Shown here: positions 19,120 to 21,386 of the stretch, piece after piece
Position numbering within the stretch: position 1 is the stretch's first letter
Layout of the letters: each line of letters starts with the position of its first letter
NCBI RefSeq assembly: GCF_900091465.1
Contig: NZ_FMHV01000002.1
Span: 5,952,001-6,016,000 of the forward strand
Direction of reading: 5' to 3'
Length of the DNA: 64,000 nt
Source: Micromonospora rhizosphaerae
GTDB taxonomy: Bacteria > Actinomycetota > Actinomycetes > Mycobacteriales > Micromonosporaceae
Notes under the pieces: generated by a model
What the model was told of the DNA's origin: nothing
Databases searched by the model: none
What the model saw: the letters and a program-made list of their open reading frames with translations, nothing else
Made by a program: the position numbers and the translations under genes

Positions 19120-19824
19120 TCAGTGGCCCATGCCGAGGCCGCCGTCGACCGGGATCACGGCGCCGGAGATGTAGCCCGCCGCGTCCGAGGCGAGCCACGC
19201 GACCACGCCGGCGACCTCCTCCGGGGCGGCGAACCGGCCGGCCGGGATGGCCTTGCGGTACTCGGTACGACGATCCTCGGGCAGCGCGGCGGTCATGTCG
19301 GTGTCGATGAAGCCGGGCGCGACCACGTTGGCGGTGATGTTCCGGCTGCCCAGCTCGCGGGTGATCGAGCGGGCCACGCCGACCAGGCCGGCCTTGCTGG
19401 CCGCGTAGTTGACCTGGCCCGGGCCGCCGTACAGGCCGACAACCGAGGAGATGAAGATCATCCGGCCCCACTTCGCCCGGAGCATCTTCGCCGACGCCCG
19501 CTTGGCGCACCGGAACGAGCCGGTCAGGTTGGTGTCCACGACCCGGGTGAACTGCTCCTCGGACATCCGCATCAGCAGCGTGTCGTCGGTGATGCCGGCG
19601 TTGGCGACCAGCACCTCCACCGGCCCCAGCTCGCCCTCGATCGTGGTGAAGGCCGCGTCGACGGAGTCGGAGTCGGTGACGTCACACTTCACGCCGAAGA
19701 GCCCCTCGGGGGCCTCGCCGCTGCGGTAGGTCACCGCCACCCGGTCGCCCTGCTTGGCGAAGGCCTGCGCGATGGCCAGGCCGATCCCCCGGTTGCCGCC
19801 GGTCACCAGCACGGTACGGGCCAC
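19120..19824 (-). CDS. fabG: 3-oxoacyl-ACP reductase FabG (MabA type)
   Basis: NADPH-dependent reduction of 3-oxoacyl-ACP in fatty-acid elongation. The 234-residue classical SDR has TGGNRGIGLAIAQAF, the NAGITDD block, the catalytic Ser in FISSVVGLYG and YAASKAGLVGVARSI, ending in VDGGLGMGH. It is the first gene of the fabG-inhA unit, possibly extended to hemH and the HAD gene. GTG 19824 is chosen because AGAGGGGG lies six to seven bases upstream; longer in-frame extensions read through the promoter region. Confidence 0.92.
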   Translation of the reverse strand: MARTVLVTGGNRGIGLAIAQAFAKQGDRVAVTYRSGEAPEGLFGVKCDVTDSDSVDAAFTTIEGELGPVEVLVANAGITDDTLLMRMSEEQFTRVVDTNLTGSFRCAKRASAKMLRAKWGRMIFISSVVGLYGGPGQVNYAASKAGLVGVARSITRELGSRNITANVVAPGFIDTDMTAALPEDRRTEYRKAIPAGRFAAPEEVAGVVAWLASDAAGYISGAVIPVDGGLGMGH

Positions 19825-19981: not shown

Positions 19982-20141
19982 TACGATGATCGGCGTTTGC
20001 GGGCGTTGGATCGCCCGCGATTTCGGGCCCCGCCGACCGCAGGAGGTGATCGCTGTGCGAGATAGCGATCCTCCCAGTCGTGGCCGGGCCGACCGTCAGC
20101 CCCGCTGAGCCACGACTCAGTCAGGTGAGCTGACCCAGCTC
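19982..20141 (+). ncRNA. Structured leader with start-codon hairpin and alternative stems
   Basis: TACGAT (19982-19987) is a good -10 box. Downstream are a hairpin GCGGGCG/CGCCCGC, then AGGAGGTGATC (20041-20051), close to a full complement of the 16S rRNA 3' end. GATCGCT (20048-20054) pairs perfectly with AGCGATC (20064-20070), leaving a GTG start in a nine-base loop, and GGAG can pair with CTCC at 20071-20074. A 9-bp stem (20076-20084 with 20109-20117) competes with CTGAG/CTCAG (20105-20120). GTCAG/CTGAC (20120-20134) competes with GAGCTG/CAGCTC (20127-20141). The architecture resembles a translational or attenuation switch. Not a family I recognise. Confidence 0.45.
20055..20108 (+). CDS. 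17-codon leader ORF
   Basis: GTG start eight bases after the core of AGGAGG, encoding VRDSDPPSRGRADRQPR. Five of 17 residues are arginine (codons CGA, CGT, CGG, CGT, CGC) and there is one Pro-Pro. The start codon lies in the loop of a perfect 7-bp stem, and the stop codon lies in the loop of the next 9-bp stem, so translation would change the folding of both. It may be a regulatory leader peptide. The strong Shine-Dalgarno sequence supports translation, but no homology is known to me. Confidence 0.45.
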   Translation: MRDSDPPSRGRADRQPR

Positions 20142-20318
20142 CCGCTCCCCCGCACCGCCCGTTTCCTCGGCCTCCGGCCGGGGCGACCGTGCTGCGCCGC
20201 CCTCGCCCGGGCCGGCCGCGGAGGAGCCCCCCGGTCACGACTTCGTGTGCGCGTCCTGATCCACCCCTGCGGTCCGGCACGTCCGCCCCGGACCGTCCAG
20301 TCGCCACGGAGCCGTCCC

Positions 20319-20405
20319 ATGAGCCGTTACGTCGCCCCGCTGGGCTTCACCCTCGCCGCCGTCTGGGTCGCGGTCCTCTTCGTCCTGGCCGGCGGCGGTC
20401 ACTGA
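20319..20405 (+). CDS. 28-residue single-span membrane peptide
   Basis: ATG start with GGAG seven bases upstream. The peptide begins MSRYVAPLGFTLAAVW and continues as one hydrophobic helix ending LAGGGH, consistent with a tiny single-pass membrane protein. It is the only other credible plus-strand ORF in the isolated 19982-20405 unit and ends 30 bases before the convergent VWA gene. Function unknown; small one-helix proteins often attach to larger membrane complexes. Confidence 0.5.
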   Translation: MSRYVAPLGFTLAAVWVAVLFVLAGGGH

Positions 20406-20435
20406 CCGCCGCCGGCCCTCGGCCGCCGCGCCCGG

Positions 20436-21386
20436 TCAGAGCAGGCGCGACGACCAGAGCAGGCTCAGCCCGCCGGCGCAGAGCGCGAAGAGCAGCGCGA
20501 TCCCGGCGTACCACTGGGTGATCTCGCGCGGCTCGGTGCGGAACCCGATCGAGCTGCCCATGTCCTGATAGACCTGCTTCAGCTCGCTGACCGAGGCGGC
20601 CTCGTAGAAATACCCCTCCGTGGTCTCCGCGAGCTGCGCCAGGGCCAGCCGGTCCACCGGCACCCGCTGCAGCTGGCCGCCGATGTCCACCTGCCCGGCG
20701 TCGGTGCCGAAGGCGATGGTGGAGACCGGCACGTTCGCCGCCTGCGCCGCCGCCGCCGCGTCCTCGATTGACCGGCCGGAGGTGCGGTAGCCGTCGGAGA
20801 GCAGCACGATCCGAGCCGGTGGGATGCCGGCCGCCCCGTCGGCGGGCACCGAGCGGATCGCCTCGAGGCAGGTGAAGACCGCCTCCCCGGTGGCGGTGGC
20901 CTCGGCCAGCACCAGCCCGTCGATCGCGGTGGTCACCGCCTCCCGGTCCTTGGTCGGCGACACCAGCACGTTCGCGGACTTGGCGAAGGAGACCAGCCCG
21001 AGGTTGTAGCTCTCGGGCAGCTCGCCGACGAACTGCTTGGCCGCCTCCTGGGCGGCCTCCAACCGGTTCGGCGCCACGTCGTCGGCCTGCATGGAGAGCG
21101 ACACGTCGATGGCGAGCATGACGGTGGCCCGTTCCAGCGGCTCCTTGGTGTCCATCGCCGGGCGGGCCATGGCGGTGGCCAGCGTCAGCAGGCAGAGCAG
21201 GAACGCGGTGGCCGCCGCGTGCCGCCGCCAACCGAGCCCCTTGGGCGCGAGGGTCCGCAGCAGGTCCACGTTGGTGAACCGCATCGCGTACGCCCGGCGG
21301 TGCAGCTGCCGCCAGACGTACGCGGCGGCCAGGGCGAGCACCGGCAGCACGGCCAGCAGCCACCACGGTTGCAGAAAACGGATCAT
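20436..21386 (-). CDS. VWA domain membrane protein (BatA/BatB-like)
   Basis: A 316-residue protein with N-terminal membrane segments (residues 8-25 and 57-73) and a C-terminal segment (about 292-312), flanking an extracytoplasmic von Willebrand A domain. The MIDAS motif is intact (VMLAIDVSLSMQADDVAPNR, with a later IVLLSDGYRTSG). VWA, DUF58 and MoxR proteins form a conserved unit thought to act in complex assembly or stress tolerance. The ATG overlaps the upstream DUF58 stop as ATGA, showing translational coupling. Confidence 0.88.
   Translation of the reverse strand: MIRFLQPWWLLAVLPVLALAAAYVWRQLHRRAYAMRFTNVDLLRTLAPKGLGWRRHAAATAFLLCLLTLATAMARPAMDTKEPLERATVMLAIDVSLSMQADDVAPNRLEAAQEAAKQFVGELPESYNLGLVSFAKSANVLVSPTKDREAVTTAIDGLVLAEATATGEAVFTCLEAIRSVPADGAAGIPPARIVLLSDGYRTSGRSIEDAAAAAQAANVPVSTIAFGTDAGQVDIGGQLQRVPVDRLALAQLAETTEGYFYEAASVSELKQVYQDMGSSIGFRTEPREITQWYAGIALLFALCAGGLSLLWSSRLL

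Follow-up and report, generated by a model that had tools for sequence, protein, structure and literature searches.

A conserved leader in front of a microprotein gene of Micromonospora rhizosphaerae looks like an undescribed translation-sensing switch. The unit lies in a single gap between two genes of the window, by which we mean the whole stretch of 64,000 nucleotides that was analysed, and its features are collected in Table 1. A hairpin, P1, encloses the start site of a short upstream ORF (uORF), ORF1; part of ORF1 pairs, as the long-range helix P2, with the spacer that leads to ORF2, and ORF2 encodes a small membrane peptide. Comparison of related sequences establishes the unit with P1, P2 and the two ORFs, and shows that these are conserved and occur together. 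It is fairly probable, judging from this layout, that translation of ORF1 remodels the leader and sets the expression of ORF2, most likely through Rho and/or through access to the ORF2 ribosome-binding site.

Table 1. Features of the leader-ORF2 unit (positions in the window; ORF positions include the stop codon).
Feature	Position	Strand	Basis or remark
-10 box TACGAT, TG in front	19982-19987	+	TAnnnT conserved upstream of the Shine-Dalgarno
ORF1 Shine-Dalgarno AGGAGGTGATC	20041-20051	+	11 nt complementary to the 16S 3' tail
P1 hairpin	20042-20074 (20042-20046/20070-20074 and 20049-20054/20064-20069)	+	GTG in or beside the loop
ORF1 VRDSDPPSRGRADRQPR and TGA	20055-20108	+	17 codons
P2 5' strand	20076-20089	+	in ORF1 codons 8-12; covariation
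Alternative local partner of 20076-20084	20109-20117	+	clade-limited
C-rich, G-poor ORF1-ORF2 spacer, candidate rut region	20109-20318	+	C/G counts
P2 3' strand CCCCGGTCACGACT	20229-20242	+	covariation; complementarity against shuffled spacers
ORF2 Shine-Dalgarno GGAG	20308-20311	+	sequence
ORF2 MSRYVAPLGFTLAAVWVAVLFVLAGGGH and TGA	20319-20405	+	28 codons, single-helix microprotein
15-bp perfect inverted repeat, 1-nt gap, over the ORF2 stop	20387-20417	+	candidate terminator

The preliminary description, made from this one sequence, had listed a -10 box, a Shine-Dalgarno sequence closely complementing the 16S 3' end, a perfect 7-bp stem with the GTG in its loop, a 17-codon ORF and a one-helix peptide of 28 residues. 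All five are present; the frame of the ORF is kept in relatives, the peptide is conserved, and the stem extends further than was described, as far as the Shine-Dalgarno.

The gap is flanked by fabG (19120-19824, minus strand; adh_short_C2 match in a profile search, 1.2e-60) and by a gene for a VWA-domain protein (20436-21386, minus strand; VWA_2 match in a profile search, 1.3e-19). fabG reads away from the unit and the VWA gene toward it, and ORF2 is the sole downstream gene on the plus strand in the gap. Among the 80 named matches listed, the leader has ORF2 as a neighbour in 75, the VWA gene in 71 and fabG in 43, part of the misses being places where the sequence stretch ends; by these counts the leader belongs with ORF2. 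In many species genes have been inserted or moved between fabG and the leader-ORF2 unit, and at L219, L224, L199 and similar named loci the distance from fabG to the element is about 2-5 kb, or the stretch contains no fabG. The region 19996-20160 folds with a z-score of -3.62 (0 of 200 shuffles) and its opposite strand with one of -3.16 (1 of 200 shuffles). Since both strands fold well, the strand is not assignable from folding alone. We propose that the leader and ORF2 would form a separate transcription unit on the plus strand.

A TAnnnT motif is found 26-85 nt upstream of the Shine-Dalgarno sequence in 112 of 115 distinct loci, against 24.6 expected from letter shuffles, and TAnnnT is the -10 motif reported for Actinoplanes SE50/110 (PMC7682106). 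The transcript would start at about 19993-19995. An additional 5' hairpin (19997-20020, TTGCGGGCG...CGCCCGCGA) lies within an insertion of about 36 nt between the -10 box and the Shine-Dalgarno; this insertion is present in part of the genus only and missing in others.

The Shine-Dalgarno of ORF1 is extreme. Three 16S 3' ends of the same genome read GGATCACCTCCT, to which the 11 nt are a perfect complement; the genome has 23 copies of the 11-mer, three of these antisense to 16S. Within it, GGAGGTGA is unchanged in all 55 loci of alignment A1, which holds 55 of the 69 distinct cores. The full 11 nt are broken by a 1-nt insertion after GGAGGTGA in L070, L071 and L091, and by a base change in L135 (A to T) and L081 (C to T). 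The 7-bp stem GATCGCT/AGCGATC holds the GTG (20055-20057) in its loop, and P1 reaches the Shine-Dalgarno through pairing of GGAGG with CCTCC (-17.4 kcal/mol). P1 is paired in 98.3% of 605 cells of A1, the RNAalifold prediction includes it, and its loop and stem are almost invariant across the family. No P1 pair is altered on both sides among the 55 loci, since P1 hardly varies. In the GGAGG half, all 20 changed cells fall on the 3' strand (11 G-U, 9 unpaired), as expected if the Shine-Dalgarno must also pair with 16S rRNA.

ORF1 starts with GTG in 48 of 53 loci and with ATG in the other five, and with nothing else. In every one of 104 distinct loci its frame runs for 11-20 sense codons before a stop, with all three stop codons in use at ten positions; within the nine codons past codon 11 a stop stands in its own frame in 103 of the 104, against 17 and 6 in the other two frames. 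At locus L088 the P1 loop carries a 3-nt insertion that leaves the frame intact. Given the confinement of starts to GTG and ATG, of the stop to its own frame and of this insertion to a multiple of three, ORF1 is, on comparative grounds, a real reading frame, a short ORF under selection as such. Residues 1-8 read V/M-R-[DNS]-S-D-P-[PS]-S, a pattern broken once at residue 2 and once at residue 7; beyond residue 8 the peptide drifts, and its C-terminal half differs between loci. Asp5 and Pro6 are found in 53 of 53 loci, an acidic codon 3 in 42 and Pro7 in 43. The conserved D-S-D-P-P codons sit inside P1. The dN/dS ratio is 0.45 in frame as compared with 0.78 and 0.89 out of frame, a modest difference because the RNA pairing also constrains the sequence. 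Codon 8 (20076-20078) is AGT in 53 of 53 loci, with its first base unpaired in P2 in 18 of 49, so that there is a constraint on this codon beyond P2. An amino-acid attenuator was considered and rejected: ORF1 of the window has no run of a single amino acid, and its C-terminal half varies between loci.

The P2 partner was found by scanning for complements of ORF1 codons 8-12; it lies well beyond the uORF, and in other genera both strands show changes that match. In A4, which aligns all 49 references by sequence only, P2 is paired in 85.1% of 683 cells, with 34 compensatory cells and with both sides altered in 10 of its 14 pairs. None of 500 shuffles attains any of these measures, and helices slid along the same alignment reach at most 13 cells and 49.9% pairing. 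The 49 references come from the diverse set of 53 loci after the near-duplicates L056, L094, L095 and L098 were skipped; that set is without L055, which repeats the locus of G003 and shares its core with L036, and without L102 and L103, which are spurious, and it lacks L077 and L088, which the ORF2 search expression missed and which both show ORF2. A subset, A2, gives 89.3% pairing, 9 of 14 pairs and 26 cells, figures that are favoured by the choice of its 38 loci after the significance of P2 at each locus was known; the 11 loci left out (L078, L081, L083, L086, L087, L089, L090, L093, L099, L100 and L107) are mostly ones that lack P2 or have its partner close by. RNAalifold on A2 returns the helices P1 and P2 and no other.

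Taken locus by locus, 39 of 53 have a P2 5' strand that fits its own spacer better than dinucleotide-shuffled spacers at p < 0.05, and in these 39 the 3' strand starts 53-115 nt before ORF2. In the other 14, among them all three loci of genus g53 and both of g56, P2 is not significant, which counts against the reading we prefer. When 29 variant 5' strands are set against their own spacers, 17 outdo the consensus strand in pairing, 11 fall short of it and 1 is equal to it. At least 12 of 13 P2 pairs are kept in 37 of 37 loci of the same genus.

The preliminary description had placed competing stems at the ORF1 stop codon. A local stem, 20076-20084 with 20109-20117, can indeed form in the genus, where 29 of 37 loci keep 8 or 9 of its 9 pairs; in most other genera it ranks neither first nor second among the matches, and is thus no feature of the family. 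A hairpin conserved at the stop codon was rejected as a candidate, as it reaches p <= 0.05 in 13 of 105 loci with a median of 0.25, near chance. The conserved, covarying partner is instead the P2 3' strand, about 140 nt further on. No conserved competitor for that strand was found, which also counts against our reading, and no family-wide stem competing for the 5' strand.

Rho loading needs C-rich RNA. Between the end of the P2 5' strand and ORF2, C exceeds G in 53 of 53 loci, and the C/G ratio of the spacer is at least 1.42 in 26 of the 53, as against 2.8% of 12146 background windows from the named loci. The C-rich, G-poor stretch after the uORF that a Rho attenuator calls for is present. In five loci the spacer measures only 73-79 nt, which is short for a rut site and counts against our reading.

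ORF2, predicted to be a membrane peptide, is under purifying selection. Its consensus, M(S/N)R(Y/F)VAPLGFTLAAxWVxVLFxL, describes peptides of 24-29 residues with one hydrophobic helix, judged from the sequence, in which M1 and W16 are invariant (47 aligned). Over 37 loci of the same genus the dN/dS ratio is 0.15, with 1.1 and 3.0 for the two other frames; over 49 diverse loci of the 53 it is 0.39, with 1.0 and 1.8 for the others. ORF2 has no match in Pfam or NCBIfam, and a profile of it, run on 246 genomes of the class, matches nothing beyond the source genome and two genomes of its genus. The inverted repeat over its stop codon has no T-run after it and is a candidate two-way terminator, common to ORF2 and the convergent VWA gene.

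How widely is the unit distributed? The query of 439 nt aligned to all 36 same-genus relatives among the 60 genomes searched. A covariance model of the 56-nt core (R1) finds the core at E <= 0.001 in 309 of 354 genomes of the family, in 32 of 44 genera, nearly always in one copy per genome. A search with a DNA pattern returned at least 120 stretches, and the 80 matches listed are from Micromonosporaceae or from metagenome-assembled genomes called Actinobacteria bacterium; the genera of the named records among these 80 we take to be members of Micromonosporaceae. Over 298 genomes of the order, the core model has a single match outside the family at E < 1e-5, G277 (E 4e-6), the next best being at 2e-4. 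Among 394 genomes of the class, the core pattern has some match in 56, among them the source genome and two congeners; the other matches resemble coding sequence, judged by their letters alone. The plasmid and phage collections hold no match to the leader core. Stems and ORFs are therefore kept in relatives, and the proposal of the preliminary description survives that part of its own refuting test which concerns conservation.

Of 21 family genomes examined that lack the core, 19 have no ORF2 match. The remaining two, G566 and G084, have an ORF2 that is cut or bordered by the contig end, so a contig edge cutting off the leader region would explain why the leader is missing there. As far as the searches show, leader and ORF2 are gained and lost together. 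G554 and G595, of the same genus, have neither; unless both parts were missed, the unit is dispensable in them, and this counts against our reading. The tested genomes of genera g26, g29, g33, g34, g45, g48 and others (family f1) are likewise without leader and ORF2, which could reflect loss or a late origin.

What would this arrangement do? Its layout is that of a translation-dependent leader, as ORF1 cannot be read unless P1 and, after it, the 5' strand of P2 are opened. We propose that P1 would hide the Shine-Dalgarno and start codon of the uORF, the message of which also carries the 5' strand of P2; with P1 and P2 formed, the uORF would be silent and the leader closed. Once a 30S subunit captures the start site and the uORF is read, the ribosome would have to open P1 first and the 5' strand of P2 next, and translation would end no earlier than the final bases of that 5' strand. 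The downstream leader would then be re-exposed, and this would set ORF2 expression, most likely by giving Rho access to the C-rich spacer and/or by changing access to the ORF2 ribosome-binding site. It is from the layout that we infer translation of the uORF to be the switch. As for the second route, when the ribosome is modelled by removing P1 and the P2 5' strand, opening the ORF2 site becomes slightly harder, on average by 1.3 kcal/mol (sd 2.2, n=53), a small effect which freeing any strand could produce and which counts against our reading. The simple idea that formation of P2 hides the ORF2 site was rejected, as this crude model points weakly the opposite way. The switch envisaged in the preliminary description, in which translation or a signal remodels the stems, thus keeps its hidden start, its short in-frame ORF, its membrane peptide and the need for translation to remodel the stems, and loses its stop-codon stem, which is limited to a clade.

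Two special cases of the uORF switch deserve consideration. It is tempting to liken ORF1 to MgtL: the D-S-D-P-P nascent chain would make ribosomes drop off at low Mg2+ or when unstable, and the position at which the ribosome stops would decide whether P2 forms, and hence the expression of ORF2, which would be a small membrane peptide serving in ion or envelope stress. We entertain this as a minor possibility. The constancy of Asp5 and Pro6 and the frequent acidic codon 3 speak for it, as do MgtL (EPDP) and mgtQ (Asp2, Glu5), reported to act through such residues (PMC11282234, PMC8092293). The outside match points the same way. G277 has a hairpin of the same kind, and in all three genomes examined of its genus, g87, of another family (L295-L297) we find GGAGGTGATCGC-CGTGAG...GCGATCC[AC]CCCAGT, encoding VSLNPCDPPSSRRG, the form in G277, or VSLNPCDPPSKRQG, with a loop two codons longer and the frame kept; since the longer loop keeps the frame, DPPS is common to ORF1 and the g87 ORF as a peptide. 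This start-codon hairpin with its 14-codon uORF (CDPPS) adjoins a DUF2332 gene, called on L297, and the next gene is MgtC in L297 (PF02308, E 1.6e-36, and PF21770), one of the three outside genomes. The pattern was found in the three g87 genomes and in none of 197 other genomes searched in that family. The parallel with Mg2+ leaders is suggestive. Against it, P1 pairing alone could fix the D-S-D-P-P codons, Asp3 is replaced in 11 of 53 loci and Pro7 in 10, the next gene in L296 encodes an ABC permease (PF00528), the similar gene that starts at the same place in L295 has a frame that looks interrupted, and ORF2 has no known link to Mg2+. The other special case is a sensor of free 30S subunits, in which the extreme Shine-Dalgarno, held by its own mimic of the anti-Shine-Dalgarno, opens only when initiation-competent 30S subunits are abundant. 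The 11-nt complementarity and the invariance of the GGAGG strand in 55 loci while its partner drifts speak for this, yet the full 11 nt are lost in L070, L071, L081, L091 and L135, and a strong Shine-Dalgarno in a strong hairpin is expected of any tightly kept uORF; we regard this sensor as unlikely. A wider version, in which the leader is a lineage-wide sensor of ribosome stability or Mg2+, the D-S-D-P-P nascent chain and the 16S-mimic hairpin making translation of the uORF depend on 30S supply and ribosome integrity and so controlling ORF2, is in our view doubtful.

Three other readings depart from the uORF switch. In a classical leader, a metabolite or an RNA-binding protein would bind P1 or P2, with uORF translation merely the readout; the near-invariance of the P1 loop and stem across the family would suit such a ligand, but no Rfam family matches, and the conserved part consists of two plain helices with no conserved multi-branch pocket, so we think it improbable. 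ORF2 has the size and single helix of a type I toxin, and its strongly folded leader could lock such a message; a single copy per genome in a mostly fixed place, strong purifying selection on ORF2 and the lack of a match to the core in the plasmid and phage collections make this very unlikely. That the region is the minus-strand 5' leader or operator of fabG, which starts at 19824 on that strand, with stems alike on both strands, is hardly credible: conservation on the plus strand covers promoter, Shine-Dalgarno and the two ORFs with their stops, and synteny led us to reject it, fabG being adjacent in 43 of the 80 named matches listed. The translation-sensing switch remains the reading we prefer.

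The preliminary description had recognised no riboswitch family and had called this an undescribed regulatory element, and neither judgement is altered. Rfam 15 has no match at its gathering score in the window, the best in the region being cow-rumen-1 on the minus strand (E 0.0036, 23.8 bits as against a cutoff of 53.4). In a literature search that covered mainly the main text of open-access papers, we found no description of the leader-uORF-ORF2 element and little on RNA regulation in Micromonosporaceae. The kind, a leader uORF, is known; the family that combines a hairpin with a Shine-Dalgarno and 16S mimic, a long-range helix of the uORF and a microprotein is new within the sources searched.

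Its nearest likenesses, as far as the sources cited describe these systems, are the following. The Mbox-uORF1-Rv1805A leader of M. tuberculosis has a short uORF and a pyrimidine-rich stretch followed by a highly conserved small protein, and works by masking of a Shine-Dalgarno and Rho-dependent termination (PMC12810186). A short uORF, a C- or pyrimidine-rich stretch and a conserved small protein are shared with the Micromonospora leader; the latter, however, has no Mbox match, its uORF hairpin itself would sense, and its P2 pairs the uORF message with the spacer. The uORFs in the metE and ppe2 leaders of M. tuberculosis are likewise actinobacterial leader uORFs, translated and raising or lowering the downstream gene, but they sit in B12 riboswitches (PMC11260477). 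The mgtL leader of mgtA resembles that of ORF1 in its short uORF with early acidic residues and prolines, and involves Rho and alternative RNA conformations (PMC11282234); the likeness is by residue pattern, and a Mg2+ pump lies downstream there as opposed to a microprotein here. In Salmonella mgtCBRU, the acidic-codon uORF mgtQ lies over alternative stem-loops and frees a hidden ribosome-binding site (PMC8092293), and like ORF1 it overlaps RNA stems, although it has 8 residues and lies between genes. MgtL and mgtQ both belong to Mg2+ leaders in which early acidic residues destabilise the ribosome (PMC11282234, PMC8092293). Finally, the ilvB-II leader of Corynebacterium is, like ours, a conserved structured actinobacterial leader that proved to be a uORF (PMC10272879); its peptides are enriched in branched-chain residues, of which ORF1 of the window has none beyond the start codon.

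Over most of the family, then, a stretch with a near-invariant core holds a uORF, a covarying long-range helix and an undescribed microprotein. The Micromonosporaceae, with Micromonospora, Salinispora, Actinoplanes and other genera, count among the major producers of antibiotics, and the unit offers a clean, single-copy object on which to test translation-dependent leaders in high-GC bacteria, with a possible link to Mg2+ or to the state of the ribosome. If the sensor reading were true, the leader would be an actinobacterial counterpart of MgtL, independently evolved, with a uORF of the same type standing before mgtC in another family.
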